41,592 bases of DNA from Candidatus Methanomethylicota archaeon. Lineage in GTDB: Archaea > Thermoproteota > Methanomethylicia > Culexarchaeales > Culexarchaeaceae. The stretch is from NCBI GenBank assembly GCA_020833005.1, contig JAJHRD010000010.1, positions 1-41,592 of the forward strand, in the 5' to 3' direction. Below the pieces are notes generated by a model. It did no database searches. It saw nothing but the letters and a program-made list of their open reading frames with translations, and was not told the DNA's origin. Of the stretch, positions 13,002 to 32,592 are shown piece after piece. Positions within the stretch are counted from its first letter, which is position 1; every line of letters starts with the position of its first letter. Position numbers and translations under genes: made by a program.

Positions 13002-13946
13002 TTAGATCGCTAAAGCCTTCCTTAAAAGATCGTAGTTTATGTAGCCAGCCTTCAAAATAGATCCAGTCCTAAAATTGTTGACAACAACCACTGCTGGGGC
13101 AAAGACACTTGGATCCAACTTGAATAGGAACTCCACACCCACTTGTGAAACAAGTTCAGTGAAGGATTTACCATAATCCTTCGATGCTGAACTTGGGGAT
13201 GCATTAACGTAACTTGAGAGTTTAGAGTCATCTGGGTAGTCAACTATGTAGAATGTTGATCCACCATAAAGTAGCATATCATTGGTTTTACCCAACATAA
13301 CCATTGGATTTGGATGTAATGGAGCTATTGGGCATACTCCAAAACCATACTTCACAGTTTTTATGTCGAATCCAATTGCATGGAACTTATGCATACCAGT
13401 TTCAACTATCCTAGCACTAATCTGCACGGAGCCAGCTACACTACTCGATGATGCAACAGCCAAATATAGGTTTTCAGGTTTAACATTAGCCGATTCACTA
13501 ATAAACTTAACAACATCTTCATTGGGGAGGGATTCAGCTTCCAATACGAGGACAGCTTCATCTGAAACTTCACTATAACCCAACTCCTCATACAACTTCT
13601 TAGGCTTCCTCGCAAGAGCCCTAGCAGGTCCACTGGCATTGGCAAAGTATTCCCCAACCTTAATCCTCCAACCAGCAAGTTGTGAAGCCATACATGCCTC
13701 CACAGGGTGATCCGTATAAACCGTAACTGCTGGTATTGTTAAACCATCAATATTGAATCCTGTTAACCCAACTTCACCTAAACCTCCAAGACATATCTTT
13801 GAAAGTATTAATCCAGCTTCAAAACCACCAGGGCTCTTCACACCCATATCCACAACAGTTGCACCAGCAACTTTGCTATAACTTATCTGAAGCTCCTTGC
13901 ACCTATCAATAGCCTTCATCAATATGTCAACGGCAATTTTATTCAT
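13002..13946 (-). CDS. mch: Methenyl-H4MPT cyclohydrolase (Mch)
   Basis: Mch interconverts formyl- and methenyl-tetrahydromethanopterin. The protein matches along its length: GATVVDMGVKSPGGFEAGL near the N-terminus, CLGGLGEVGLTGF, VYTDHPVEACMASQLAGW, FANASGPARALARKPKKLYE, and FGVCPIAPLHPNPMVMLGKTNDM-like core elements around residue 215. I start it at the ATG 13946, 4 bases after the fmdC stop. That places MNKIAVDILMKAI where Mch proteins normally begin, whereas the frame runs back to 13997 inside fmdC. No strong Shine-Dalgarno is present, so translation is probably coupled to fmdC. It is the last gene of the ftr-mch operon. Confidence 0.93.
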   Translation of the reverse strand: MNKIAVDILMKAIDRCKELQISYSKVAGATVVDMGVKSPGGFEAGLILSKICLGGLGEVGLTGFNIDGLTIPAVTVYTDHPVEACMASQLAGWRIKVGEYFANASGPARALARKPKKLYEELGYSEVSDEAVLVLEAESLPNEDVVKFISESANVKPENLYLAVASSSSVAGSVQISARIVETGMHKFHAIGFDIKTVKYGFGVCPIAPLHPNPMVMLGKTNDMLLYGGSTFYIVDYPDDSKLSSYVNASPSSASKDYGKSFTELVSQVGVEFLFKLDPSVFAPAVVVVNNFRTGSILKAGYINYDLLRKALAI

Positions 13947-13950
13947 AGGT

Positions 13951-14823
13951 CTACTCAACTTCCACCCTCTCCTCCATGAAGTCTTTATACTGCTCAATTA
14001 ATGATTTATTATCTTCGAGGGATATATATACGCTACCCCTACCGCCAACAACTGCATCTGCTATGAATACTGCGAAGGGTTTATTCATGGATATCTTGCC
14101 AACCCTAACTGATGGGACTATTGAATCGAAGTAGAAGCTTGGCAGAATCCCCTCAACAACTCCACCCACAATAACCCTGCCAGCAGTCATCCTGGCACCG
14201 GGGTATAAGTCGCAATTCTTCTGGATTAGTATAGTTCCACCCATCATATTCAATCCACATAGCATTCCAGCATTACCATCTATTATTATCCTTCCACCCT
14301 TCATTCCAAACCCTATCTGCGACCCAGCATCACCATGTATCACTATTTCTCCACCAGACATCCCCTTACCAGGCCTTTCACCTGGAAGTTTCCCTCCAAC
14401 ACAATCACCACACCCCTTCATAACCTCAATACTTCCACCCTTCATCTTAGCACCAAGATAGCTTCCAGCCTTCCCCTCAATAAGTATGGATCCACCAATC
14501 ATCCTATAACCAGCGAAATGCCCAACATCACCTTTAACAACAATCCTTCCACCACTCATCCTATATCCAATGTACTTCAATTTCCCAGAACCCAACCCTT
14601 CAATTAGTATTTCAATGGAATTTACATCTCCAGGAGCATTTGAGGGGCCGCTGACATCAAATAGATCCTTCAACTCAACGGATACCCCACCTTCAAGGAT
14701 GCCGAGTTTAAGGATGTCATTTAAACTCTTACCAGCAAATGAATTTGGAGATATGTTTCTAGCATCCACTGGAACTTTAGGTTCATACTTCAATTTAACA
14801 ATATAGGTTGATTTAACACTCAT
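13951..14823 (-). CDS. fmdC: Formylmethanofuran dehydrogenase subunit C
   Basis: This 290-residue FmdC/FwdC forms a right-handed beta-helix. From about residue 75 to 245 it shows regular short repeats of the form GxxMxGGxIxIxG (for example YIGYRMSGGRIVVKGDVG and QIGFGMKGGRIIIDGNAG). In the solved Fwd complex this subunit is structural, packing FwdA against FwdB. I chose the ATG at 14823 because GAGGTGA sits five bases upstream. A GTG at 14832 overlaps the fmdA stop and is less well placed. Fourth of the five subunit and enzyme genes preceding mch in the operon. Confidence 0.92.
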   Translation of the reverse strand: MSVKSTYIVKLKYEPKVPVDARNISPNSFAGKSLNDILKLGILEGGVSVELKDLFDVSGPSNAPGDVNSIEILIEGLGSGKLKYIGYRMSGGRIVVKGDVGHFAGYRMIGGSILIEGKAGSYLGAKMKGGSIEVMKGCGDCVGGKLPGERPGKGMSGGEIVIHGDAGSQIGFGMKGGRIIIDGNAGMLCGLNMMGGTILIQKNCDLYPGARMTAGRVIVGGVVEGILPSFYFDSIVPSVRVGKISMNKPFAVFIADAVVGGRGSVYISLEDNKSLIEQYKDFMEERVEVE

Positions 14824-14828
14824 ATATT

Positions 14829-16550
14829 TCACCTCAAACTGGTTTTTAATGGTATTTCCATAGGATTCCTCAACTCCCTCTCCTCTATGAAGAAGTTTCT
14901 AAGTGAAATAGAGTAATACTTCTTGAATGCGGAATTCAAGTATCCTTCAACCTCCAAAACCATATCCTTTGGGATTTCAGGCTTAACGTATAGGGTTCTA
15001 CCATAAACTTGCTTAACGATCTCACCACCCTTAACAATTATTTCACCACCCTTAATTGTCATGTAAGCTCTCCTAAAAGCCTTTGAAATCCTCTCATAAT
15101 CCTTACTTAAATCCACAATTCTAGGGTCAATATCATATATTGCTATGTCAGCATCAGCTCCAATTCCAAGATGACCCTTAAACTTCTCTAAACCAAGAAG
15201 CTTTGCTGGAGAAGCTCTAGTGATTATTGCTATATCATACAATGTTAATTCACGGTCTAATGATGGTATCACACACCTCTTCAAAGCCTTCCTATTCAGT
15301 TTAGCCATGAAATCCTCCCTAGCCTTCTTACTCATAAGCCAACTCATAACTACTGGATAATCTATGAATGGACCACCATTGGGGTGATCTGTGGTTAAGA
15401 AGACTCTCCACAAATCCCTAGATAGCAATACAACTTCAAGTCCAATTGCCCATTGAACCGTATTAACATAACTCTTCTTCTTATACTTGTATGGAACAAT
15501 CCCGGAAGCAGTTTCCACCTCAGTATCAGTGGCACTCCACTTCCAACGGGTCAAATGATATAATACGAATTCGAAGGGTGCATCCGCAGTCATGGTTGTT
15601 GCAGGTCTACCTGGAATAACCTGCCCCATATCCAAAGTCACATATGGATTTGCATTTAAAACATTAGCTATATCTTCACCACCACTCTCCAATGAACCCC
15701 AAGAATCACCCTTATAACCAGTAAATTGAACGTGCGTCACATGTAGAGCTGAACCTTCAGAGACTATCTTCAAATCCTTAGTTAAATTCATAGTTTCCAT
15801 GGTCACCAAATAGTTTCCAGGATACCCAAGCCTATTACAGTGAACATGAACTTTATGTGGCAAATTTAATTGCTGAGCTGATTCAGCTATAGCCTTAATT
15901 ATATCCCTTGGAGTTAAACTATACCCTGGAACTTGATCATCCAAACCTAAACCTCCACCCTTAATCATCCAAGCAACATCAGAACCGGCATCAACAATCT
16001 TAAGGGAATAAGTTTTTGTTGCATATAGTAGCCAAGCAAGATATGCTGTAAGCATATCTCTACGGGATTCTTGAATTAAGTCCAATACAATCCAATTGGA
16101 GTCCACAAGGACGAAAGCCATCTTATCGATCATTGGAATTGCATTGAGCTCTTCATGCGTATGTCTAGTCTTCAATGGTGGAGTTGCAGGTTCAGCCACA
16201 AGGGTGTAACCCATCCTAGCATAATCATAACCAAATCTGAATACGTTGGGTACTGTTAAGCCAGTTTCAGCCCTCTTAAATGGAGGTTTATGTGGTACAT
16301 TCGTCATGTAGTGATCTTCAGGTCTAATCAACCTACCAACATTAACTTTAGGTCCAGCTATATGTGAATGTATATCTATACCACCTGGAAGGACAACTTT
16401 ACCACTAGCATCCACAACAATAGCTTCACTCAAATTTATCTCGGAAGGATCAACTATCCTACCATCCTTAACACCTAAATCCATAACCTCCCCATTAATT
16501 GAATTCAATGGATCATAAACCAACCCATTCTTAATGAGTATTTGAGCCAT
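14829..16550 (-). CDS. fmdA: Formylmethanofuran dehydrogenase subunit A
   Basis: This 573-residue amidohydrolase-fold subunit condenses formate with methanofuran after formate has been made in FmdB. Visible metal ligands are HSH (H61, H63) in PGGIDIHSHIAGPK, a lysine in YSLKIVDAG near residue 185 that fits the carboxylated lysine of the family, KVHVHCNRLG and the TDHPNGGPF region with the conserved aspartate. The C-terminus carries KLLGLEKFKGHLGIGADADI, usual for this fold. The ATG follows the fmdDB stop directly (TAA then ATG with no gap), indicating coupled translation. Confidence 0.95.
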   Translation of the reverse strand: MAQILIKNGLVYDPLNSINGEVMDLGVKDGRIVDPSEINLSEAIVVDASGKVVLPGGIDIHSHIAGPKVNVGRLIRPEDHYMTNVPHKPPFKRAETGLTVPNVFRFGYDYARMGYTLVAEPATPPLKTRHTHEELNAIPMIDKMAFVLVDSNWIVLDLIQESRRDMLTAYLAWLLYATKTYSLKIVDAGSDVAWMIKGGGLGLDDQVPGYSLTPRDIIKAIAESAQQLNLPHKVHVHCNRLGYPGNYLVTMETMNLTKDLKIVSEGSALHVTHVQFTGYKGDSWGSLESGGEDIANVLNANPYVTLDMGQVIPGRPATTMTADAPFEFVLYHLTRWKWSATDTEVETASGIVPYKYKKKSYVNTVQWAIGLEVVLLSRDLWRVFLTTDHPNGGPFIDYPVVMSWLMSKKAREDFMAKLNRKALKRCVIPSLDRELTLYDIAIITRASPAKLLGLEKFKGHLGIGADADIAIYDIDPRIVDLSKDYERISKAFRRAYMTIKGGEIIVKGGEIVKQVYGRTLYVKPEIPKDMVLEVEGYLNSAFKKYYSISLRNFFIEERELRNPMEIPLKTSLR

Positions 16551-18281
16551 TTAAACCCACCCCCTCTTCTCCTTAACCTTACTCAATATCTTGGATAAAA
16601 TCTCCACATCAGATAAAACCCCCTTAGGTGGATCTACAACCTTCCTCATCCTTATGGGTACACCATCCATCCTATAAGCAGTCCCCTCAAATTCAATTCC
16701 AACAAAGCCTGAGGGTATTATTACGTCGGAGAATAGCGTTGTAAGAGACCACTTAGCATCAATAACTATGACTGGGATCTTCGATAAATGTTGAACAGCC
16801 TCAATGGGTAGATGAGCTGCAGGATCACTTGCAACCACCAACATTGCATCAACATCACCATTTGCAAGTAGATCCACCGTGGTGGTAACTCCAGGGATCA
16901 TCTTCGGAAACCCCCTTGAGAAATCAACTCCATATGGGTATCCAGTGAGCCATAGAATTGTCTCATTGGATCCACTAACATTGTAATGCCCCCTCATGGG
17001 TATTATTGCAAACTTAGTCCACTCATTCAATTCCTGAACCAACCTTATCACCTCTTGGAGATTCCTATTCTTAGCTCCACTCATAGTCACACCAACACCG
17101 ACAAATATAACTCCATACCTAGCCCTCATCATCATATCAGCCAACTCCAAAACCTTCTCCCTGGGAACGCCTGCAATTTTGGGGGCTTCAATATCCAAAT
17201 CCTTTAAAACCATCATTAAAGCAGTTATTAATTCAAGATCCCTCCTAGGTTCAATTTGAATGAATAAGTCTGCTTGATCAGCTATTGGAGTTTTCCTAAC
17301 ATCAATAACCACAATCTTCCTATCCCTACGACCCTTGGAAAACCTCCCCTCACGTAGAATTAAGCGTGTAAAGTGGTTTAAGTGAGCGTGGGATGGATTT
17401 GAACCCCAAAATATTATTAGATCAGCCAACTGTATAACTGTCCCAAAAGTCGTCCTAACAGTACCAACCTCCTGAGCCCCCTGAATGGTGGGGCCATGAC
17501 ATATAGTGCTCGTGTTATCTATAACCCCATGCAATATCTCAGCCAACTCAACACCAACCTCAACAGCTTCATTGGAAGTGTTAGACCAACCGTAGAGTAG
17601 TGGATACTTGGATTTAACAAGTATATCTGAAGCTAAATCTATAGCTTCATCTAAATCAACTTCAACGAGTTTGCCATCCCTCCTAACGTAAGGTTTCAGT
17701 ATCCTATGCCTCCAATAATTGAGGAATTTAGCCATGGAAATGGCGCATCCACCAACATTCCTAACAATCCTATCACCCTCAACCTCAATCTTCAAATGAT
17801 CGCATAAATCTCCACAAAATGGGCATGGAACATCTTCAAAAACCCTCCTCTCACCTGAATTCAATGGTTTATCCATGGGGTAAACTTCAAGCCCCTTAGC
17901 ACCAAGACTCCTCAAAATATCATTTAAGGATGTAATTCCATCAGTGGTGGATTCAACTGAAACCTTAACGGACTTCAAACTAGGCATACCAGTACCATCA
18001 GTCAATGAATGCATAATGAAGTTAGCCCATGGACCCATAGGAATAAAAATAACGCCTGAAGGAACCCTATCACTAGACTTAACTGGTAGAACAACGGAAT
18101 ATTTGGATGTTGAAACCTTAACCCTATCAGTAACGCCAAGTCTACCCATATCCTCAGGGTTCATCTCCACAACGGCCACAGCTTGAAAATACCTATCACT
18201 AAGTTTACCATCACTCTCCATGGAAACTCCTTGAGACAACGTCCTCCCAGTAACTAAAAAGAATTGTTGGGAGGAGGTCAT
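16551..18281 (-). CDS. Fused formylmethanofuran dehydrogenase subunits D and B
   Basis: One 576-residue frame carries two subunits. Residues 1 to about 125 are FmdD, the molybdopterin-dinucleotide-binding domain (LVTGRTLSQGVSMESDGKLS, then VIFIPMGPWANFIM and GTGMP). After a linker with LRSLGAKGLEVYPMDKP, FmdB starts: the [4Fe-4S] motif C153, C156, C160, C179 in CPFCGDLCD to VGGC, then STICHGPTIQGAQE with C261 as the expected Mo/W ligand. FmdB reduces CO2 to formate. In well-studied methanogens D and B are separate neighbouring genes. The ligand is Cys, not selenocysteine. It overlaps mtd by four bases (ATGA). Confidence 0.93.
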   Translation of the reverse strand: MTSSQQFFLVTGRTLSQGVSMESDGKLSDRYFQAVAVVEMNPEDMGRLGVTDRVKVSTSKYSVVLPVKSSDRVPSGVIFIPMGPWANFIMHSLTDGTGMPSLKSVKVSVESTTDGITSLNDILRSLGAKGLEVYPMDKPLNSGERRVFEDVPCPFCGDLCDHLKIEVEGDRIVRNVGGCAISMAKFLNYWRHRILKPYVRRDGKLVEVDLDEAIDLASDILVKSKYPLLYGWSNTSNEAVEVGVELAEILHGVIDNTSTICHGPTIQGAQEVGTVRTTFGTVIQLADLIIFWGSNPSHAHLNHFTRLILREGRFSKGRRDRKIVVIDVRKTPIADQADLFIQIEPRRDLELITALMMVLKDLDIEAPKIAGVPREKVLELADMMMRARYGVIFVGVGVTMSGAKNRNLQEVIRLVQELNEWTKFAIIPMRGHYNVSGSNETILWLTGYPYGVDFSRGFPKMIPGVTTTVDLLANGDVDAMLVVASDPAAHLPIEAVQHLSKIPVIVIDAKWSLTTLFSDVIIPSGFVGIEFEGTAYRMDGVPIRMRKVVDPPKGVLSDVEILSKILSKVKEKRGWV

Positions 18282-19123
18282 TTGCCACGTGCCTCCTCCA
18301 TCAACTTCTCCTTAAACAGTATAGTGCCATCAGAGCTATGTGGTGTTCTAACCAATGTATCACCATACTTCTCTATTTCGCGAGCTTCATCAGCCAATTT
18401 AGCTGCATACCTCATGATCTCATGGGCTGCGGCAAGTATTGGTATGTATCTCTCACGCTCCTTAATCTTGAAGCATCCCTCCGTGGTTAGATCTGAAACC
18501 TTCACAGCAATGTCATAGGCAGCCATAGCCTTAGCCTTAGCATATGGATTCCTATACTCAGCATATGTTACTGCAACCTCCCTATCCACAACGATCTTCG
18601 GTAATGATGGCTTTTCACCAGCCTTCAACGAATTTATAACTTTATCCAATTCAACTTGTAGAAGCCTAACAACTCCAGTGGCAGCTAAAACCTTAATTAC
18701 ATCGGTATTGAATATTGTCATTTCAACTGGATCCAAGAAACCTCTACGAGCTCCAATCATGGAATCAGCCAACACAATTATGTATCCAAAACCCTTCTCC
18801 TCAAGCTCCTTAGTAATCCTCCTAGCAGGTGCATCTGAAATTACAATCACATTCTTACCCTTCTCACCAAGAGCATTCCTAACCTTAGTTGGACCTGGGA
18901 GGGATGCATTTGGACTTGGAATTATGTATAGATCGTAGTCTTCAGCTAAAGCCTTCTTGGCAAGTTCCTCAGCATTAGCTTCAGTCATCTTAGCACCCAC
19001 ACTTAAAACTCTAACTTCAATATCCCCCCTATCAGCCCTCTCATCCAAAACATACTCTAGGAGTGGCGATGAACCAATACATCCAAGCTTCAAAATACAA
19101 ACCTTCACAACTTTACTCGACAT
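18278..19123 (-). CDS. mtd: F420-dependent methylene-H4MPT dehydrogenase (Mtd)
   Basis: Mtd transfers hydride between F420 and methenyl/methylene-tetrahydromethanopterin. Full-length identity is clear: VKVCILKLGCIGSSPLLEYV, LDERADRGDIEVRVLSVGAK, ADSMIGARRGFLDPVEMTIF near residue 130-150, RNPYAKAKAMAAYDIAVKV near 210, and RYIPILAAAHEIMRYAAKLA with DTLVRTPH at the end. The frame extends to a GTG at 19135 touching the ftr stop. I prefer the ATG at 19123 (MSSKVVKV), preceded by GGTGAT, because Mtd proteins begin just before the first beta strand. Second gene of the operon. Confidence 0.94.
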   Translation of the reverse strand: MSSKVVKVCILKLGCIGSSPLLEYVLDERADRGDIEVRVLSVGAKMTEANAEELAKKALAEDYDLYIIPSPNASLPGPTKVRNALGEKGKNVIVISDAPARRITKELEEKGFGYIIVLADSMIGARRGFLDPVEMTIFNTDVIKVLAATGVVRLLQVELDKVINSLKAGEKPSLPKIVVDREVAVTYAEYRNPYAKAKAMAAYDIAVKVSDLTTEGCFKIKERERYIPILAAAHEIMRYAAKLADEAREIEKYGDTLVRTPHSSDGTILFKEKLMEEARGK

Positions 19124-19134
19124 ACCCATCACCA

Positions 19135-20067
19135 CTAAACTTCAACTTCAATACTTTTAACACTTTCTAAAGCCTCCTTCAAACGCAAATGATATGGGCC
19201 AAGCTTACCACCATAATTCCCAGCATCAATCTTGACGACACCTGGAACGCTTGCAGCGGCTTTAATGGCCAACCCCATAGCCATCAAAACATCATCCCTC
19301 CTAAGACCATTGATCACAATCTCATAAACTGATTCAACACCCTCAGGGATCCTTGTATCCTTAACAATATTCCTTAAAACTGGGCAGTATGGATGGTTTG
19401 TTGTAGCTCTAAGCTTCGGATACTTCAATGAACCCACCTTGGAACCTGAGCGGACAATACCCCCAGGGAATGGTGTCACCACATACTTACCATACCTATG
19501 TATGGCTTTCACAGCCTTTTCAGCTGCATTTAAACATGCATCCCTACTCTTAGCCAATATGAGTATATTTCCACCAGCAACCCCCTTAACCAAGCCAAAT
19601 GAATCTTCAATTATGAATTCACCCTCCATAACTGGGATCCTCCAAACCTTCCTCCCACCAATAGTATCCTCCCTCTCAAATCCATCACCAAACTTTGCAA
19701 GAGACTTACCAATATACATCTTCCTCTTAACCTTTGGAAGACCATTAAATGCAGATGCAGTGGCTGCTGTGAGAACGCATTGACCAATCCTAATTAATGT
19801 TACAAGCTTCAATGTTGCTGGATCATTATGATATATATGTATAGCTGCCCCAGGACGCTGATCTGGAGTCAACTTACTTGAAACAAGCTTTTCAATTCCA
19901 GCTTCACCTGGACATGCAATAACAGATGTACCAAGACCAGTAGCTGCACGTGCAGCCACAAGAGCCCATTTGGCATTGATAGCCGTTATGAAAACTCTAG
20001 TTGCATACATTGGGAATGCTTCAGCAAAAGTATCTTCAATTAAAACATCACCCAACTTAAAACTCAA
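19135..20067 (-). CDS. ftr: Formylmethanofuran:H4MPT formyltransferase (Ftr)
   Basis: Ftr moves the formyl group from methanofuran to tetrahydromethanopterin. The 310 residues match the family throughout: EDTFAEAFPMYATRVFITA at the start, CPGEAGIE, RPGAAIHIYHN, RIGQCVLTAATASAFNGLP, VWRIPVMEGEFIIEDSFGLV, VTPFPGGIVRSGSKVGSLKY and KYPKLRATTNHPYCP. The start is a TTG at 20067 preceded by GGTGAGG (20072-20078 on the other strand). As first gene of the operon it sits just downstream of the promoter region at 20095-20116. Confidence 0.95.
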   Translation of the reverse strand: MSFKLGDVLIEDTFAEAFPMYATRVFITAINAKWALVAARAATGLGTSVIACPGEAGIEKLVSSKLTPDQRPGAAIHIYHNDPATLKLVTLIRIGQCVLTAATASAFNGLPKVKRKMYIGKSLAKFGDGFEREDTIGGRKVWRIPVMEGEFIIEDSFGLVKGVAGGNILILAKSRDACLNAAEKAVKAIHRYGKYVVTPFPGGIVRSGSKVGSLKYPKLRATTNHPYCPVLRNIVKDTRIPEGVESVYEIVINGLRRDDVLMAMGLAIKAAASVPGVVKIDAGNYGGKLGPYHLRLKEALESVKSIEVEV

Positions 20068-22114: not shown

Positions 22115-24487
22115 ATGTCCATACCCCACAAAAATTTCAGATTAAAGATAGATGAATTGAAGAGTGCATTAGCTGAAATTAAGGGTTTGGATATAAGTGT
22201 AGGTTACATAGTGGAGGAGTGGGCTGAACCCCAAGGTCCAACACCATTCCCAACAATAACAAGTTTAAGGAGATGGGATCACATACTACTAAACAAATAT
22301 AAACCACTATACCTACCATACTGCGATCTATGTTGTCTATGCACATATGGTAGATGCGACCTATCCAGAGATAAGAGGGGGGCATGTGGATTAGGATTAT
22401 CAGAACAGCAATCAAGATTGGTGACATTGGTATGCGCAATAGGAGCAGCAACACATGCAAGCCATGCACGTGAAATGCTAGATAAATTGATAGAGAGATA
22501 TGGTAGAGATGCACCAATAAATCTCGGAGAACAAGTACATGTTGAAATGCCAGTAACGAGGCTTGTGACGGGAGTAAAACCAAACACCTTAGGAGATCTA
22601 GAGATAGTAATGGATTACGTTGAGAGGCAAATAGTTCAAACACTGGCAAGCGTACATACCGGTCAAGAGGGCAGTTTAATAGATTATGAATCAAAAGTAT
22701 TCCATCTGGGGATGCTAGACCACGTGGCATTGGAGATAGCTGACGTAATACAAACTTCATCACTAGACTTCCCAAAAGCAGATCCAGAAGCACCACTAAT
22801 AGATCTCGGAGCAGGAGTTGCGGAATCAAGGAAGCCAGTAATATTGGTGATAGGGCATAACGTTTTACCAGCATCATCAATAATAGATTACCTAGAGGAA
22901 AATGGAATTAGAGATCAAGTGGAAGTATGTGGATTATGCTGCACAGCACACGATATAACTAGATATGAGAAGAAGAGGGCAAAGATAATTGGGCCAATAT
23001 CATGGCAATTGAGATTCATAAGAACAGGATTACCAGATGTAATAGTGATAGATGAACAATGCATACGAACAGATGTGGTTGAAGAAGCTAGGAGGATAGG
23101 TGCAGTGGTAATAGCAGCATCAGATAAAGCATGCCATGCACTACCAGACAAAACCATGGAAGATGCTGATAAAATTGTTGACGAATTGGTTAATGGAGTA
23201 ATACCGGGAGCATTAATACTTGATGATGAGAGGATGGCTGAAGTAGCAGTGAAGACAGCACTCAAAATATTCCCAACGAGGAGGAGTAAAATTTCTGGAT
23301 TAATGGGTGAAAATGAACTCATCGAATATGCCAAGAAGTGCACTGGATGTAGAGAATGTGAAAGGAGTTGCCCACAAAGTTTACCAATATCCACAGCCAT
23401 GGCTAAAACAGCTAAGGGGGATGTGAAGGCTTTAGCCTCACTATACAATAGATGCTTCGCCTGCAGTAGATGTGAGAAGGCATGCCCAAGAAACATACCA
23501 ATATTAAGCATGATACTGAAATCCTCAGAGGAAATCATGAAAAATGAGAAGTTTAAGATGAGGGTTGGTAGAGGGCCCATACAAGACACTGAGATAAGAG
23601 CTGTGGGTAGGGATATAGTTTTGGGGACAATACCCGGAGTCATAGCCTTCGCTGGATGCGCCAACTGGCCTGATGGAGCAAGTGATGTAGCTGAAATGGC
23701 ATATGAATTCGCCTCTAGGAGGTATATAGTTGTGGCATCAGGATGCTCAGCTATGGCAATTGCAATGTATAAAACTGAAGAAGGGAAAACGCCATATGAA
23801 GAATTCAGCGGAGAATTTACAGCTGGAGGTTTAGTTAACGTTGGTTCATGCGTAGCCAATGCACATATATCTGGTGCAGCAATAAAGATTGCAAACATAT
23901 TCGCCAGACTACCATTAAGGGCGAACTATGCTGAAATAGCAGACTACATACATAATAGGGTTGGAGCCGTGGGGATAGCTTGGGGTGCAATGAGCCAGAA
24001 AGCTGCAGCAATAGCCTCAGGATTCTGGAGGCTTGGAATACCAATAATAGTTGGCCCCCATGGAATAAAGTATAGGAGAATGCTATTGGGGAATGCTGAA
24101 GATGAGAATGCATGGTACGTTTATGATGCTAAGACTGGAGAGAAGGTTTACGGTGGACCTGCACCTGAACACCTATTCTATGCAGCTGAAACTAAGGAGG
24201 AAGCTATGGTTATGGCTGCAAAGCTATGTATAAGACCAGCAGACACACCACAAGGTAGAGCAATAAAACTCACAAACTACATATCATTATATAAGAAGTT
24301 CTTCGGAGAGGAGAAGCTGCCAAAGGATATACACTTATTCATTAGAAGTGAGGGGGATATACCAATAACATATAGGGATGAAGTCATGAGATATCTTAAG
24401 GAGGTTGGATGGATAGAGAAGCCAGTAACATCAAACCCAACACATCTAACCGAAGTTGTTGAAAAGATGAAGGTGAGAGAAACATGA
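22115..24487 (+). CDS. cdhA: CODH/ACS complex alpha subunit, carbon monoxide dehydrogenase
   Basis: This 790-residue archaeal CdhA interconverts CO2 and CO at a Ni-Fe-S C-cluster. The N-terminal B/D-cluster region reads YCDLCCLCTYGRCDLSRD with CGLG after it. A conserved HTGQEGSLID near residue 180 is present. C-cluster cysteines are seen in EVCGLCCTAHD, FAGCANWPDGA, ASGCSAMAIAMYKTEEG and NVGSCVANAHI. An inserted two-cluster ferredoxin domain, diagnostic of the archaeal subunit, has CTGCRECERSCP and CFACSRCEKACP near residues 410-460. All expected metal ligands appear intact. The ATG follows GGAGATGAT, and the stop overlaps cdhB by four bases. Confidence 0.96.
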   Translation: MSIPHKNFRLKIDELKSALAEIKGLDISVGYIVEEWAEPQGPTPFPTITSLRRWDHILLNKYKPLYLPYCDLCCLCTYGRCDLSRDKRGACGLGLSEQQSRLVTLVCAIGAATHASHAREMLDKLIERYGRDAPINLGEQVHVEMPVTRLVTGVKPNTLGDLEIVMDYVERQIVQTLASVHTGQEGSLIDYESKVFHLGMLDHVALEIADVIQTSSLDFPKADPEAPLIDLGAGVAESRKPVILVIGHNVLPASSIIDYLEENGIRDQVEVCGLCCTAHDITRYEKKRAKIIGPISWQLRFIRTGLPDVIVIDEQCIRTDVVEEARRIGAVVIAASDKACHALPDKTMEDADKIVDELVNGVIPGALILDDERMAEVAVKTALKIFPTRRSKISGLMGENELIEYAKKCTGCRECERSCPQSLPISTAMAKTAKGDVKALASLYNRCFACSRCEKACPRNIPILSMILKSSEEIMKNEKFKMRVGRGPIQDTEIRAVGRDIVLGTIPGVIAFAGCANWPDGASDVAEMAYEFASRRYIVVASGCSAMAIAMYKTEEGKTPYEEFSGEFTAGGLVNVGSCVANAHISGAAIKIANIFARLPLRANYAEIADYIHNRVGAVGIAWGAMSQKAAAIASGFWRLGIPIIVGPHGIKYRRMLLGNAEDENAWYVYDAKTGEKVYGGPAPEHLFYAAETKEEAMVMAAKLCIRPADTPQGRAIKLTNYISLYKKFFGEEKLPKDIHLFIRSEGDIPITYRDEVMRYLKEVGWIEKPVTSNPTHLTEVVEKMKVRET

Positions 24488-25017
24488 GCATAGAATATTG
24501 GGCTAAGGGGGATATACCACCAGGACCAATAAAAGCAACTGTAGTGCCAGATGTAAAGAGGTTGGCAAGCATAATTAAACAACATAAAAAGCCAATAATG
24601 ATGATAGGTCCAGAAATACATAGGTTAAGTGAATTGATTGGTGGAGATATATTGAGCAACTTAATAAGTATATCCAATAGTATAAAGGCTGAGATAACAG
24701 TCTCGGATAGTAAAACTGTTAGGGAACTCGATTCAAGGGGGTTCAAAAACTATGTGATAGCATTCCCACTGGAAGTGGTTCAAAAAATATCATCAAATAA
24801 ATCCAATTACGATCTAGCAATACTCATTGGATTCCACTACTACTACGGCTGGCTACTACTAAACTACCTAAAACACTACGCATATAAACATCTAAATACA
24901 ATGTCAATAGACCCATACCCACAACCCAATGCCACATGGACCTTCCCACTACTCCCACTCTCCATATGGTACAAAAACCTATGCCAATTAGAGGGGGAAC
25001 TTAAAGTCGTAAGTTGA
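24484..25017 (+). CDS. cdhB: CODH/ACS complex epsilon subunit
   Basis: This 177-residue CdhB is the small partner of CdhA in the archaeal CODH component. It has a Rossmann-like fold of the DHS type (KPIMMIGPEIHRLS, then LAILIGFHYYYGWLLLNYLK). The start MSIEYWAKGDIPPGPIKAT is typical, with the segment contacting CdhA. Its biochemical role is unsettled. It overlaps cdhA by ATGA and is followed by a 61-base gap with a likely new promoter. Confidence 0.92.
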   Translation: MSIEYWAKGDIPPGPIKATVVPDVKRLASIIKQHKKPIMMIGPEIHRLSELIGGDILSNLISISNSIKAEITVSDSKTVRELDSRGFKNYVIAFPLEVVQKISSNKSNYDLAILIGFHYYYGWLLLNYLKHYAYKHLNTMSIDPYPQPNATWTFPLLPLSIWYKNLCQLEGELKVVS

Positions 25018-25027
25018 ATAGCATAAA

Positions 25028-25034
25028 CTTTAAA
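25028..25034 (+). promoter_or_regulatory. TATA-like box upstream of cdhC
   Basis: CTTTAAA lies about 45-51 bases before the cdhC ATG in the gap after cdhB. A GAGGCGAG stretch just before the start can act as ribosome binding site. This suggests an internal promoter separating cdhAB from cdhCDE. Confidence 0.4.
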
Positions 25035-25078
25035 ATCCATTATTAACACATAATTATGGCTTCATAGAGGCGAGTTAG

Positions 25079-26578
25079 ATGGGCTTAACGATAAACATAC
25101 TAAACCCAATTCAAGTTCCAGAAAATATTCCAGTAAGAGTTTATGATGTACCACCAGCACCGGAGAAGGGGATGTTCCTAGATATACCAGTAGATGTTGG
25201 ACCACAATATGAAGGGCAGAGGGTTAGAAGGGAAAACATGTTTGTAGAATTTGGTGGACCAAAATTGAAACACAAATTTGAACTTGTTAGGATAAAGGCA
25301 AATCCTGAGGAAGTTAATGATGGAAAAGTGATAATTGTAGGTGAAGATATAAATGAATTGAAACGTGGAGGAACATACCCCCTCGCAATAATACTGGAAG
25401 TTTATGGAAGTAAGCTGGATCCAAATGCTGAAGGTGTAATAGAGAGGAGAGTTCATGAATTCTGCAATTACATACAAGGATTCATGCATTTAAACCAAAG
25501 ATACGATATATGGCTTAGAGTCGCAGATAAATCTTATAGTAAGGGGTTAACATCATTCAAATATATAGGCACAGTACTATATAGGCTATTCAAATCTGCA
25601 TTCCCAATAATAGAGAAGATGCAAATAACATTTGTAACCAATGGAGAAATCGTTGGAAAACTATTTGATCAAGCATTGAAGGTATATGAAGCTAGAGATG
25701 CAAGGATATTCGGACTTAGGGATGAAGATGTAGATGTATTCTACTCATGTAGATTATGCCAATCCTTCGCACCAACACACGTATGCATCATAACACCTGA
25801 AAGATCGGCAAATTGTGGTGCAATAACATGGATAGATGCCATGGTGGCTGCGAAGATAGATCCGAAGGGACCCATAGCCCCAGTTCCTAAGGGTAAACTG
25901 CTAGACCCAATAAGGGGGGAGTGGGAGGGAGCCAATGAAACTGTTAGAAAGCTTTCAGGAGGTTCAATACAAAGGGTAACATTATACTCGGCCTTCGATT
26001 ACCCACATACATCATGTGGATGCTTTGAATGCGTAACATTCTACGTACCCGAAGTCGATGGACTGGGAATAGTTCAGAGAGGATACGCGGGCGCAACCCC
26101 AGTTGGACTTAAATTTGGAGATATAGCTGATTCAGCTGGTGGAGGGAAGCAGATACCTGGATTCTATGGTCTTGGAGTATTATACATGAGGTCGAAGAAG
26201 TTTCTACAAGCTGATGGTGGATGGAATAGAATTGTATGGATGTCATCTGAATTGAAGGAGAAGCTACTGGATGCAATACCACAAGAATTGCGTGACAAAA
26301 TTGCAACTGAGAAAGATGCAAAGACGGTTGAGGAATTAAAGAAGTTTTTAATTGAAAGGAAGCATCCACTTGCAATCAAGATATTGGAGAAAAAAGTTCC
26401 AGAGGAAAAGGTTGTTGAAAAACCAGTAACCATAACACCCACGGAGAAGGAGAAGGTTGAAGAGGTAATATCAATACCTGAAATACCAGTAAGCATGGGC
26501 GGTATAAGCTTCATATTAAAGAATGTTAAAATTAGAGCTGAAAAGATCGTGATAAAGAGGACTGAGGAGAGGAAGTGA
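25079..26578 (+). CDS. cdhC: Acetyl-CoA synthase (CODH/ACS beta subunit)
   Basis: This 499-residue archaeal CdhC joins CO, a methyl group and CoA at the Ni-Ni-[4Fe-4S] A-cluster. The cluster motif is split as expected: CRLCQSFAPTHVC near residue 225-237, then ANCGAITW, and CGCFEC near 315-320. AYAGATP-like and DSAGGGKQIPGFYGLG elements follow. Like other archaeal forms it lacks the N-terminal CODH-binding domain of bacterial AcsB. The last 75 residues are a charged Lys/Glu/Val linker and a short GGISFILKNVKI tail. The stop overlaps cdhD by GTGA. Confidence 0.95.
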   Translation: MGLTINILNPIQVPENIPVRVYDVPPAPEKGMFLDIPVDVGPQYEGQRVRRENMFVEFGGPKLKHKFELVRIKANPEEVNDGKVIIVGEDINELKRGGTYPLAIILEVYGSKLDPNAEGVIERRVHEFCNYIQGFMHLNQRYDIWLRVADKSYSKGLTSFKYIGTVLYRLFKSAFPIIEKMQITFVTNGEIVGKLFDQALKVYEARDARIFGLRDEDVDVFYSCRLCQSFAPTHVCIITPERSANCGAITWIDAMVAAKIDPKGPIAPVPKGKLLDPIRGEWEGANETVRKLSGGSIQRVTLYSAFDYPHTSCGCFECVTFYVPEVDGLGIVQRGYAGATPVGLKFGDIADSAGGGKQIPGFYGLGVLYMRSKKFLQADGGWNRIVWMSSELKEKLLDAIPQELRDKIATEKDAKTVEELKKFLIERKHPLAIKILEKKVPEEKVVEKPVTITPTEKEKVEEVISIPEIPVSMGGISFILKNVKIRAEKIVIKRTEERK

Positions 26579-27816
26579 TCATCGTGACAGATAAGGAGAA
26601 GAAGATGATGGAGGAATTGGGGAATAAGGTTATAAGTGAATTACTATCAAACATAATGGAGGCTATAAATAAGGGCATAGTTGAATTACATGACGTTGAA
26701 ATTGAAGCTGAAGAATTACAAATAACCCTTCAACCAATGGTTAGGAGAACTCTAAAACCAGCAGTGGAAGTTGTTAAGAAGAAGGTTATTGAAATCTCGA
26801 AATTGGCATTTGAAGAACCAAAAATATCATTTCCGGGGAGGGTTGTGGAAGTTAAGATGGGGGCAACTAAGAGTGAAGGTGGATCGAGGGATAGGGTATT
26901 AGTATTGGGGGGACATACACTACCACCATACTACTATATAACTGGAGTAACCCAAACAAATCCACCACGCTTTGGTGGAGACGTATTCGATATGAAGATA
27001 TCATTACCTAGAGCCGTTAGACAAATTTTCGGAGATGCCCTAGACAACCCAGTTGAATGGGCTAAGATTTGGGTTGAGAAATTCAAAGCTGAAGCCATAA
27101 ACATACACTTAATCAGCACAGACCCAGCCATAAAGGATACAAATCCACAAGAATCAGCCAAACTCGTTGAAGAGATAATGCAACAAGTGAAAGTGCCAAT
27201 AGTAGTTGGTGGAAGCGGAAACCCAGTAAAAGATGTTGAAGTATTCAAGAAGATTTCAGATGTAACTGAGGGGGAAAGAGTTGTTCTAAATAGTTTAAAT
27301 TTGGATATGAAACTTGAAGACATATGTAAACATATATCGAAGAAGGATACCGTGGTAATAGACTTCTCACCAATGGACCTAGATAAAGCTAGGGAAATAA
27401 ATAGGAAAGTTTACGATTGGATACAGAAGGACAGGATAATACTGGATTTGAACATTGGAGGTATAGGTTATGGAACTGAATATGGATTTACAGCCATGGA
27501 GAGAGCTAGATTGGCAGCTTTAATTGGAGACACTGAACTTCAACATCCATTCAATGTTGGAGCTTCAAATGCTTGGGGTGCTAGGGAAGCATGGATAACG
27601 ATGGATCCATATTGGGGTCCAAAGGAGATTAGGGGGCCATTATGGGAAACTCTGACATGCATAATATGCCTCCTAGCAGGAGCTGACTACTTCATGATGC
27701 TACACCCAACAACAATGAAAACCCTAATGGAGTTGAGGGAGAGCATGTTCTCCCAACCCAAACCACAATTGGAAGACTCCATGAAATGGTTATCATCAAA
27801 ATTACCGGTGATATGA
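26575..27816 (+). CDS. cdhD: Corrinoid iron-sulfur protein small (delta) subunit
   Basis: This 413-residue CdhD is the TIM-barrel partner of the corrinoid Fe-S protein that accepts the methyl group from methyl-H4MPT and presents it to acetyl-CoA synthase. Recognisable blocks are VLVLGGHTLPPYYYITG, INIHLISTDPAIKD, VPIVVGGSGNPVKDVEVFKK, LDLNIGGIGYGTEYGF and HPFNVGASNAWGAREAWITM. The N-terminal 90 residues are a charged helical region. The start is a GTG overlapping the cdhC stop; a second GTG three codons on is also possible. cdhE follows after one base. Confidence 0.94.
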   Translation: MIIVTDKEKKMMEELGNKVISELLSNIMEAINKGIVELHDVEIEAEELQITLQPMVRRTLKPAVEVVKKKVIEISKLAFEEPKISFPGRVVEVKMGATKSEGGSRDRVLVLGGHTLPPYYYITGVTQTNPPRFGGDVFDMKISLPRAVRQIFGDALDNPVEWAKIWVEKFKAEAINIHLISTDPAIKDTNPQESAKLVEEIMQQVKVPIVVGGSGNPVKDVEVFKKISDVTEGERVVLNSLNLDMKLEDICKHISKKDTVVIDFSPMDLDKAREINRKVYDWIQKDRIILDLNIGGIGYGTEYGFTAMERARLAALIGDTELQHPFNVGASNAWGAREAWITMDPYWGPKEIRGPLWETLTCIICLLAGADYFMMLHPTTMKTLMELRESMFSQPKPQLEDSMKWLSSKLPVI

Positions 27817-27817
27817 T

Positions 27818-29257
27818 ATGCCGTGGAAAGCACCAAACCCAATAGAAATATACAAGATGCTCCCAAAAACCAATTGTGGGAAGTGTGGAGAAGCAAATTG
27901 CATGGCATTCGCAGTTAAACTTATAAATTTTGAAGCAGACCTTGACCAATGCACACCACTACTTGAAGAAGGGTATAGGGAAAATTACCAGAAGATAAAA
28001 GCTTTAGTGGCACCACCAGTAAGGGAAATTGCATTGAAATCCCCACAGCGGACAGTTAAGATAGGCGGAGAGTACGTGCTATATAGACATGAACTCAAAT
28101 ATATGAATCCAACAGCCATAGCCATAGATGTCGATGACTCTATGGATAAAGATACACTAATAAAACGCTTAAAGACTATTGAAAACTTTTCATATGAATA
28201 TGTAGGTCGTAAACTGAAACTTGATTTAGTGGCCCTAAGATCAACATCAAAAGATCCAAAACAATACATGAAAGCCACACAAACAGTAATTGAAAACTGC
28301 ACACTACCATTAATTCTATGCTCACAAGACCCAAGAATAATAGAGGCAGGACTCTCAGTATTAAATGGGAGATATAAACCACTAATTTATGCTGCAACGA
28401 AGGATAATTGGAGGGAAATGGCTGATCTTGCAAAAACATACAATTCAGCATTAACAATAGCCAGCCCAGGAGACCTAGATACACTAATATCCCTAGCAAA
28501 AACATTAACGGAAGATGTTGGCATAGAAGATGTAGCTTTAGATCCGGGGTGCTTCACCGGCATTGGCGGATTATCATACACGATAAAGGCATATACACAA
28601 TTAAGGTATAAGGCTATGAACGAAGGTTATAAGTATGCATCATACCCATTAATAGGAACGCCAATATCCATATGGACGAAGCCACATGAAGATCCCATTC
28701 AAACAATGATGTGGGAAACAATTCTATCCACAATAATGATGACCAGATATGCAGATGCCATAATAATGCATTCCCTCGAAGGCTGGACTCTACTACCACT
28801 AGTCATGTGGAGATTCCAGATATACACAGATCCGAGGAAGCCAGTGGCAGTTGAGAAGGGTCTTAGAGCCATTGGAAATCCGGATGAAAATTCACCAGTA
28901 TTCATAACAAGCAATTACGCTTTAACATACAGTATAGTTTCAAACGATATACAGAAAGGTGGCTTAAATGCATGGTTAATAGTTATAGATACCGAAGGGT
29001 TAGCTGTAGATGTCTCTGTAGCTGCTAAGAAGTTCATTGGAGACAAAGTTTTAGAGGTAATCAAGGAAAGCGGTCTTGAAGGAAAGGTTAAAAATAAGAT
29101 ATTAATAATACCGGGAAAAGCTGCCAGAGTTTCAGGGGATATAGAAGAAGCAACTAAATGGAAGGTTGTAGTTGGACCAATGGATTCAAGTGAAATACCA
29201 TCATTCATAAAGAAGATGTGGACTCCAGAGAAGATTAAGGAGATATTAGAAGGATGA
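27818..29257 (+). CDS. cdhE: Corrinoid iron-sulfur protein large (gamma) subunit
   Basis: This 479-residue CdhE carries the [4Fe-4S] cluster and the cobamide. The N-terminal cluster motif is TNCGKCGEANCMAFAVKL with a fourth cysteine in DLDQCTPLL (about residues 19-46). A TIM barrel follows (TAIAIDVDDSMDKDTLIKRL, then ASPGDLDTLISLAKTL, and DPGCFTGIGGLSYT). The C-terminal cobalamin-binding domain contains SPVFITSNYALTYSIVSNDI and VVGPMDSSEIPSF. The cluster reduces the cobalt for methyl transfer. The ATG is one base after the cdhD stop. Confidence 0.95.
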   Translation: MPWKAPNPIEIYKMLPKTNCGKCGEANCMAFAVKLINFEADLDQCTPLLEEGYRENYQKIKALVAPPVREIALKSPQRTVKIGGEYVLYRHELKYMNPTAIAIDVDDSMDKDTLIKRLKTIENFSYEYVGRKLKLDLVALRSTSKDPKQYMKATQTVIENCTLPLILCSQDPRIIEAGLSVLNGRYKPLIYAATKDNWREMADLAKTYNSALTIASPGDLDTLISLAKTLTEDVGIEDVALDPGCFTGIGGLSYTIKAYTQLRYKAMNEGYKYASYPLIGTPISIWTKPHEDPIQTMMWETILSTIMMTRYADAIIMHSLEGWTLLPLVMWRFQIYTDPRKPVAVEKGLRAIGNPDENSPVFITSNYALTYSIVSNDIQKGGLNAWLIVIDTEGLAVDVSVAAKKFIGDKVLEVIKESGLEGKVKNKILIIPGKAARVSGDIEEATKWKVVVGPMDSSEIPSFIKKMWTPEKIKEILEG

Positions 29258-29263
29258 TGACTA

Positions 29264-31132
29264 ATGGATTATGAAGAAGGAGAACACGCTAGAATATCAA
29301 TCCCACAATACAACCTAGAATTCCACGTTAAGAAGGGTTCAACAATACTTGAAGCGCTAAGAGAGAAGGGGATAGGGATTAGGAGTGTATGTGGTGGTAA
29401 GGGATTCTGTGGTAAATGTAAAGTTATAGTGACGAGAGGTAGGGTTGAACATAGGGTTAGGGATAAAGAAGTAATATCAGTGGAGGAGCTATCCAAGGGA
29501 TATGTACTCGCATGCCAAGCAAAGATCATAGAGGATATTGAGATAACAATACCGCCTGAAAGCATAATGGGTAAAGCGAAACTCCTAGCAGACTTCATGA
29601 GTGAAAGTGTTGAAGTAAAACCATACACGCATAAAATAATTATAAGCAAGGGAAATATACATGAATTAAAGAAGATATTAAGCGAATATAAGGTAGCTTG
29701 CGAAGAGAAATGGAGCTTCGAGGAATTATTTGATAAAATATTGGAGGATAATGCAACTCTAATCGTAAACTCATACCTTAAAGAGATAGTTAAAATCGAA
29801 TTTGCAAAGAAGGTTGAGAAATTCTATGGTTTAGCTGTAGACGTTGGAACCACAAAGATAGTTGCATCAATAATTGATATGAGCAATGGAAACATCCTAG
29901 CAACTGATTCGGAATTCAATAAACAATTGGTTTATGGAGAAGATTTAATGTCAAGAATATCATATGCAATGGAAATAAAGGATGGTTTAAAGGAGCTTCA
30001 AAGGGCAGTTGTGGATACAATAAATGAACTCGTAAAGAGGTTATGTGGGAAACTTGGCGTAAATGCCAATGAAATATGTGAAGTAGCTATTGCTGGAAAC
30101 ACTGTAATGACATATACAACAGTAGGGTTGAATCCAAGTCCACTGGTAAAATCATTTAAAGAGAGAGTTAACATTCCAAGAAACCCATACACACTACATG
30201 CAAAGGATCTAGGATTAAAATTGAATGGGAATACACCAATATACGTACTTCCATGTGCAGGTAGATTCTTCGGTGGAGACGTCATAGGAGACATCATAAC
30301 TTCAAGATTAAGCTTCCAAGAACAACCATCCATACTAATAGACATAGGAACAAACACAGAAGTTGCTATTGGATGTAGAGATTGGGTTTTGGGGACCACA
30401 GCTCCAGCTGGACCAGCCTTTGAAGGGTGGGGACTTAAATGTGGTGTAAGGGCCATTGAGGGGGCAATTGAAAGTATAAAGATAGATTCAGAAACGTTAA
30501 AAGCACATTACAACACAATAGGTGGAGCAAAACCAATTGGAATATGTGGTTCTGGGTACATAGATTTACTAGCAGAACTATTCATAAATGGAGTAATAGA
30601 TGTGTTTGGCAAATTCAGAAGGGATATAGAATCACAGTACATTAGATTGGGGGCTGATGGATACGAATATGTAGTTGCATCTAAAGATGAAACTTCAATT
30701 GGAAGGGATATAGTGATAACGGAGAAGGACATATACAATCTAATTGATGCAAAATCCTCAGTTTGCGCTGCAATATCAATTCTATTGAAGAAGATGTTGA
30801 TGAACGTAAACGATGTTAGAAAAGTGTACATATGTGGAGCTTTCGGAAAATACCTAAACGTAAATAACGCCATAGCAATAGGAATGATACCGGAATTCAC
30901 AAATGCCGAAATAATTTACATTGGGAATGGATCCCTCGGAGGATCATATCTATCATTGATATCAAAGGATTATAGGGAGGAGGCTGAGAGGATTTCAAAG
31001 ATAGTGGCGATCATAGAATTACTATTAGACCCAGACTTCATGGATGAATATCAAGCTGGATTCGTACTCCCAGGTAAGAGGGAGCTATTCCCAACATGGT
31101 GGGAAGCCAGTAGGAAAATACGTCATAAATAA
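29264..31132 (+). CDS. RACo-like reductive activator of the corrinoid Fe-S protein
   Basis: This 622-residue ATPase restores inactive Co(II) corrinoid protein to Co(I). It has an N-terminal plant-type [2Fe-2S] ferredoxin domain with C43, C49, C52 and C84 (CGGKGFCGKC then VLACQ), a linker of about 90 residues, and an ASKHA/DUF4445 domain from about residue 185 (GLAVDVGTTKIVASIID, then ILIDIGTNTEVAIG, and KVYICGAFGKYLNV). This order matches bacterial RACo. The archaeal RamA activators I know of carry [4Fe-4S] clusters at the other end. Six bases after cdhE, it is clearly part of the operon. Confidence 0.88.
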   Translation: MDYEEGEHARISIPQYNLEFHVKKGSTILEALREKGIGIRSVCGGKGFCGKCKVIVTRGRVEHRVRDKEVISVEELSKGYVLACQAKIIEDIEITIPPESIMGKAKLLADFMSESVEVKPYTHKIIISKGNIHELKKILSEYKVACEEKWSFEELFDKILEDNATLIVNSYLKEIVKIEFAKKVEKFYGLAVDVGTTKIVASIIDMSNGNILATDSEFNKQLVYGEDLMSRISYAMEIKDGLKELQRAVVDTINELVKRLCGKLGVNANEICEVAIAGNTVMTYTTVGLNPSPLVKSFKERVNIPRNPYTLHAKDLGLKLNGNTPIYVLPCAGRFFGGDVIGDIITSRLSFQEQPSILIDIGTNTEVAIGCRDWVLGTTAPAGPAFEGWGLKCGVRAIEGAIESIKIDSETLKAHYNTIGGAKPIGICGSGYIDLLAELFINGVIDVFGKFRRDIESQYIRLGADGYEYVVASKDETSIGRDIVITEKDIYNLIDAKSSVCAAISILLKKMLMNVNDVRKVYICGAFGKYLNVNNAIAIGMIPEFTNAEIIYIGNGSLGGSYLSLISKDYREEAERISKIVAIIELLLDPDFMDEYQAGFVLPGKRELFPTWWEASRKIRHK

Positions 31133-31968: not shown

Positions 31969-32592
31969 ATGGCACTCCTCTCATACTGGAAGAATTGGGA
32001 TAAAGTTAAAGATACTGTTAAAAGTCTTGCTGGGAGATTTGGATTTGAGAAGGGGAGGGAAATCCGCTTCCTAGGATTCAAATTATCATTGGAGAATGGG
32101 AAGATATATGATGAAATTCTAAATGAAGAGGTTGAAGATGATAGGAAAGGCGAAATATACTATGTATTATACATACATTCCCAAGCAACAGAAGATGTTG
32201 GGGAAACTGGGGAATACGCTTCATTCACAGAATTATTCAAGGCATATGGAGAATACGCTTTAAAACACTGTCCAGCATTTAAGAGTGTATGTAAAGAGTT
32301 TGAAGAGGGGTTTGGTAGAAATCCAGAACCACTACGTAAAGTTGCAGAGATATTGGGATGTGAAATTGTAGATTATGGTGATATGGCATTAAAGATATAC
32401 GCCCTACCAAAAGTACCAATAATACTGGTAATATGGGTTGGCGATGAGGAAATGCCACCCTCAAGCAACATACTATTCGATAAATCGGCAGTCAACTATA
32501 TACCGGAATGTGAAGCCCTCGTAAGACTTGCAAAGATAACTGTTGAAAGAGTCTTAAGCATTGCAAAATCACATAAACCCATCAAAACTTAA
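31969..32592 (+). CDS. DUF3786 protein, CODH/ACS-associated
   Basis: This 207-residue soluble protein is of the DUF3786 type. Landmarks are GREIRFLGFKLSLENGKIYDE near the N-terminus, the conserved FTELFKAYGEYALK, a region with C and F residues (HCPAFKSVCKEF), and LPKVPIILVIWVGDEEMPPS-type segments with ILFDKSAVNYIPECEALV near the end. Proteins of this family occur with CODH/ACS and corrinoid-dependent genes, but no activity is known to me. It starts 18 bases after the cooC2 stop and appears to be the last gene of the operon. Confidence 0.78.
   Translation: MALLSYWKNWDKVKDTVKSLAGRFGFEKGREIRFLGFKLSLENGKIYDEILNEEVEDDRKGEIYYVLYIHSQATEDVGETGEYASFTELFKAYGEYALKHCPAFKSVCKEFEEGFGRNPEPLRKVAEILGCEIVDYGDMALKIYALPKVPIILVIWVGDEEMPPSSNILFDKSAVNYIPECEALVRLAKITVERVLSIAKSHKPIKT

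Follow-up and report, generated by a model that had tools for sequence, protein, structure and literature searches.

A single-chain FwdD-FwdB fusion of formylmethanofuran dehydrogenase in Candidatus Culexarchaeum, with one main origin among Thermoproteota copies and apparent lateral transfer of its operon

Do the FwdD and FwdB subunits of formylmethanofuran dehydrogenase truly share one polypeptide at this locus, and does such a fusion mark a distinct lineage of the enzyme? The window, by which we mean the whole analysed stretch of 41,592 nucleotides from a Candidatus Methanomethylicota archaeon, belongs to a draft genome in 150 contigs, and a first-pass annotation had read a D-B fusion at positions 16551-18281. 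These limits proved exact, and we could add the strand, which had not been given: fwdDB is one unbroken frame of 576 codons on the minus strand, starting with its ATG at 18281, ending with its stop codon at 16551 and encoding 576 aa, and the plus strand across the same interval is stop-rich. A genome-wide search returned this gene as the sole Fwd-type match within its own genome. It lies in a minus-strand operon with the order ftr-mtd-fwdDB-fwdA-fwdC-mch, in which the mtd stop overlaps the fwdDB start in a 4-base ATGA junction. The features are as follows.

19135-20067, minus strand: ftr, formylmethanofuran:H4MPT formyltransferase (profile matches)
18278-19135, minus strand: mtd, F420-dependent methylene-H4MPT dehydrogenase (profile matches)
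16551-18281, minus strand: fwdDB, fused FwdD-FwdB (single frame, domain and PDB matches, AlphaFold model)
17904-18266, minus strand: FwdD domain, residues 6-126, molybdopterin-dinucleotide-binding (PF01568, NF042908, solved FwdD chains)
17838-17903, minus strand: linker, residues 127-148, free of stop codons and frameshifts
16575-17837, minus strand: FwdB catalytic domain, residues 149-569 (TIGR03129 over its full length, Foldseek)
17745-17825, minus strand: [4Fe-4S] cysteines C153, C156, C160 and C179
17499-17501, minus strand: Cys261 of the CHGP motif, predicted Mo/W ligand (invariance, alignment to the CHGP of solved FwdB)
14829-16550, minus strand: fwdA, amidohydrolase subunit (TIGR03121, 726 bits, above cut-off)
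13951-14832, minus strand: fwdC, beta-helical (GXGXG) subunit (TIGR03122, above cut-off)
13002-13997, minus strand: mch, methenyl-H4MPT cyclohydrolase (TIGR03120, above cut-off)
22115-31132, plus strand: CODH/ACS cluster with cdhA, cdhB, cdhC, cdhD and cdhE-type subunits and an AcsV-like corrinoid activator, divergent from the fwd operon

The annotation had described an FmdD-like domain in the first ~125 residues followed by a complete FmdB with its [4Fe-4S] motif and Cys ligand, and both parts of this description were confirmed by profiles and solved structures. Pfam places Molydop_binding (PF01568) at residues 7-105 with 61.8 bits and Molybdopterin at 193-566, both exceeding the cut-off, while the NCBIfam FmdB model TIGR03129 is matched from end to end (1-421 of 421) by residues 150-569, scoring 514.8 bits (cut-off 327.8). 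The FwdD model NF042908, an exception-level model of the tungsten isoform, matches residues 6-126 (of 129) with 104.3 bits, and since this score stays under the curated cut-off of 175, we do not claim the tungsten isoform. Solved FwdB chains match residues 149-573 (5t5i_B, 7e-132), and the solved FwdD chains 2ki8_A, 8rja_D, 9sfi_S and 5t5i_D match residues 8-128, with 2ki8_A reaching 5.6e-26 over residues 9-127 in the whole-query search. All four cluster cysteines as well as Cys261-His262-Gly263-Pro264 are invariant across 36 fused homologues.

An AlphaFold2 model built on the alignment of these 36 sequences reached a mean pLDDT of 92.7 and a pTM of 0.92, and the linker block, with a pLDDT above 90, is placed confidently as well. 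FwdB chains are the top PDB matches of this model in Foldseek (TMt 0.94-0.97; 0.96-0.97 for the FwdB chains of 5t5i), ahead of other molybdopterin enzymes such as formate dehydrogenases. Escherichia coli FdhF, to which the model aligns, NapA and NuoG likewise hold these domains in one chain, but their dinucleotide-binding domain is C-terminal, whereas that of fwdDB is N-terminal. Where the NapA and NuoG models match the fusion, their C-terminal segments fall on its N-terminus, so that the fwdDB chain is a naturally permuted molybdopterin enzyme with the domain order IV-I-II-III. The tungsten enzyme FwdABCDFG of the methanogen Methanothermobacter wolfeii (PDB 5t5i) shares full-length FwdB and FwdD homology and the same catalytic motifs, but carries both subunits as separate chains; it also includes FwdF and FwdG, of which none was seen in the window next to FwdA and FwdC, and the window organism is not a methanogen. 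A different joining is found in 9sw6_K, a chain of 400 aa annotated as Mo-FMD subunit C that is an FmdC-FmdD fusion and whose residues 279-384 are matched by the D domain of fwdDB. Both chains thus have FmdD fused with another Fmd subunit, which is FmdC in 9sw6_K and FwdB in fwdDB.

In most archaea examined, the D and B genes are adjacent, often in the same frame with one intervening stop, so that a frameshift, a stop-codon error or a misassembly in a 150-contig draft might join two neighbouring genes artificially. However, full fused frames occur in many genomes, from which 36 distinct fused proteins were recovered, and one of these frames lies on a single contig of 1,875,953 bases (putative Ignisphaera aggregans), the size of the closed genome of this species (PMC3035270). 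In the window's class, every member whose gene escapes contig ends has a full-length fused frame, and two fragments in one further genome of this class (G007) lie at contig ends and are consistent with fusion. Among the Thermoproteia, as the class is assigned here, 16 genomes carry the fusion and the other 2 matches are contig-end fragments that are equally fusion-consistent. Chance is not in question, since relatives carry this fused frame in each case where no contig end interrupts the gene. Stops flagged inside the loci of G053/G060 and G113/G204 are genuine gene boundaries, and the frame through D and B in G314 (L027) is open.

The linker, which the annotation had singled out near residues 126-148 as possibly conserved, has a narrow length of 20-28 aa in the 36 distinct fused proteins and, in the two comparisons with close relatives that could be computed, a dN/dS of ~0.16, and so is under purifying selection, although it is the least conserved section of the protein. 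The frameshift or sequencing error considered in the same annotation is excluded by the independent genomes together with this dN/dS, and we regard an artefactual origin of the frame as extremely improbable. The D-B fusion in one polypeptide is thus real.

The kind of fusion, however, is not new. A 2024 mSystems study, 'Fusion/fission protein family identification in Archaea' (PMC11237513), reported the same two subunits in one open frame as its cluster 525, with B+D fusions in 16 Methanomicrobiales and 14 TACK assemblies. Nor are fwdD and fwdB separate in all known methanogens, since a Methanomicrobium genome in our own set (L098) has a D-B fusion with a 24-aa linker in addition to a separate unfused D/B pair.

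To place the fusion, a tree of 82 FwdB domains was calculated, in which Methanomicrobiales are represented by L098. The fused copies of Thermoproteota all fall into a single clade (support 100/98), and this topology argues for one main origin, in the common ancestor of these copies. Just one clade member is unfused: in L117 (G361; L117:1191-2931), the D domain is interrupted by a frameshift close to seven consecutive A, which may be genuine or due to sequencing. Outside the clade, near relatives have D and B as separate neighbouring genes, and in one of them (L121) the TAA stop of D directly abuts the ATG of B in the same frame, so that a single stop loss would produce the fusion. Most parsimoniously, the fusion therefore probably arose when the stop that separated fwdD from a directly adjoining fwdB in the same frame was lost. 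A tree of the short D domain was poorly resolved and did not recover the fused group as a single clade.

The Methanomicrobium fusion has the same domain order and a linker of similar length, and joint monophyly of all fusions is rejected only weakly (p-AU 0.036), which speaks for one fusion event ancestral to all of them, Methanomicrobiales included. Against this, the Methanomicrobium copy is placed among euryarchaeal FwdB and not in the Thermoproteota clade, and bootstrap trees require three label changes, one of them being the frameshifted L117. A shared ancestral event hence appears unlikely, and the Methanomicrobium fusion is apparently a second, independent one. Two further observations concern FwdB diversity in general. 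Many bathyarchaeial FwdB proteins (L015, L016, L035-L039 and others) have a ~45-50-residue insertion near B-domain position 170 that is absent in fused copies. Divergent stand-alone FwdB-like proteins with 26-32% identity (L101, L017, L102-L106) occur in several class members, mostly alongside a fused copy.

Within the fused clade, the history of the gene appears to depart from that of its host. FwdDB of Culexarchaeum clusters with the copies of Sulfolobales archaeon SKYB35 and of the Ignisphaera type, apart from the same-order Culexmicrobium (L006), with an identity of 70% to SKYB35 and ~50% to Culexmicrobium; the SKYB35 locus has the identical gene order ftr-mtd-fwdDB-fwdA-fwdC-mch at 59-74% identity. 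Vertical inheritance alone, with the fusion passed down with the organisms and the operon never transferred, would fit the single clade of fused copies and the presence of the fusion in every member of the window's class that has Fwd. It fits poorly with the nesting of the Culexarchaeum copy among those of Sulfolobales and Ignisphaera, since a tree constrained to unite the Culex copies is rejected (p-AU 6.1e-5). In addition, FBPase on the window contig follows the organism while FwdDB does not: its identity declines with organism kinship from 98% (to congener G001) over 95, 87, 80 and 74% to 68-72%, so that the contig, unlike the operon, seems to be native. Congener G001, although 99% complete, lacks fwd, mch and a full-length cdhA, while two of its congeners have all three; the distribution of the Wood-Ljungdahl module in the window's genus is patchy. 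Purely vertical descent is thus improbable. A mis-binned contig behind the Sulfolobales-like operon was also considered and is unlikely, given the kinship-like FBPase and two other related genomes carrying the same operon. Differential loss of ancient paralogues instead of transfer is possible, yet the grouping of the Culexarchaeum operon with those of Sulfolobales and Ignisphaera implies an apparent lateral transfer between lineages in which Culexarchaeum was involved. The suggestion that the fusion marks a distinct lineage consequently holds for the gene, which forms one FwdB clade, but not for the organism, as the operon has apparently passed from one archaeal class to another.

As the operon lies beside the CODH/ACS cluster and the genome lacks mcrA, fwdDB of Candidatus Culexarchaeum is predicted to serve the Wood-Ljungdahl pathway and not methanogenesis. 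No TIGR03256 match for mcrA was found in the window genome, its genus or its order, by which a methanogenesis context is rejected and the methanogen framing of the first reading does not fit the organism. Neither FwdF nor FwdG is represented by a polyferredoxin-like multi-[4Fe-4S] ORF within the window, where four-Cys ferredoxin motifs occur in CdhA only. FmdE is present elsewhere in the window genome (contig C99), which also has a second mch (G000:C31:12666-13664, 366 bits against TIGR03120), and a DUF3786 protein is encoded at window positions 31969-32592, shortly downstream of the CODH/ACS cluster. The main text of the Culexarchaeia paper does not name Fwd (PMC9723716).

In the solved complex, CO2 is reduced by the FwdBD module, and the resulting formate passes through an internal FwdC-stabilised cavity to the FwdA amidohydrolase in a two-step tunnelling mechanism (PMC11656701). 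By homology to such structures, the N-terminal FwdD of the fusion would supply the domain that is C-terminal in formate dehydrogenases and nitrate reductases, and CO2 would be reduced to formate at a bis-pterin centre, presumably with Mo or W, fed by the [4Fe-4S] cluster. Formate would then travel through the FwdC-stabilised cavity to FwdA and be condensed there with methanofuran, after which Ftr, Mch and Mtd may carry the C1 unit toward CODH/ACS, or the whole path may run in reverse. The fusion would leave CO2 reduction and tunnelling intact. That it fixes the D:B ratio, as had been proposed, adds little, because FwdBD is already treated as one CO2-reducing module in that work. Taken together, we consider it very likely from these comparative data that fwdDB is a functional single-chain FwdB-FwdD module of formylmethanofuran dehydrogenase with a single Thermoproteota origin, whose operon later moved.

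The fused gene also occurs in a reduced setting. Two loci, L120 (G177:C1:338000-343000) and L111 (G192:C1:28000-33000), contain fwdDB-fwdC pairs without fwdA, in which the catalytic motifs of fwdDB are intact, and a MobA-like gene adjoins the L120 pair. FwdA gave no match at 1e-10 in genome G177, the putative Ignisphaera aggregans, and Ftr was likewise undetected there; a congener has fwdDB-fwdC as a second copy. Because the pair persists with intact motifs in the absence of detectable FwdA and Ftr, the single-chain DB might tentatively be seen as a mobile CO2 reductase that needs no other part of the pathway to function and acts in Ignisphaera aggregans as a methanofuran-independent formate dehydrogenase/CO2 reductase, a speculative reading that we consider rather doubtful. 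Our literature search found neither a paper on Ignisphaera Fwd nor biochemical work on any fused protein.

As this kind of fusion was already known, fwdDB is a genuine lineage marker and not a discovery. The accessible part of PMC11237513 gives counts, and does so without the Culexarchaeum case, the domain order, the single-clade origin, the transfer or the FwdA-less copies. The present analysis contributes the order of the domains, an origin in one clade next to an unfused relative with D and B in frame, a transfer that apparently involved Culexarchaeum, and the DB-C pairs of Ignisphaera that lack FwdA. For annotation, a 'missing' FwdD in these archaea can mean an FwdD fused to FwdB. For the enzyme family, the fusion indicates that a permuted domain order in a fixed single chain is compatible with the Fwd catalytic module. 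It also provides a clean marker, at the level of the gene, for a single lineage of CO2-fixing enzymes in archaea, and this marker suggests that the H4MPT methyl branch moves between archaeal classes.
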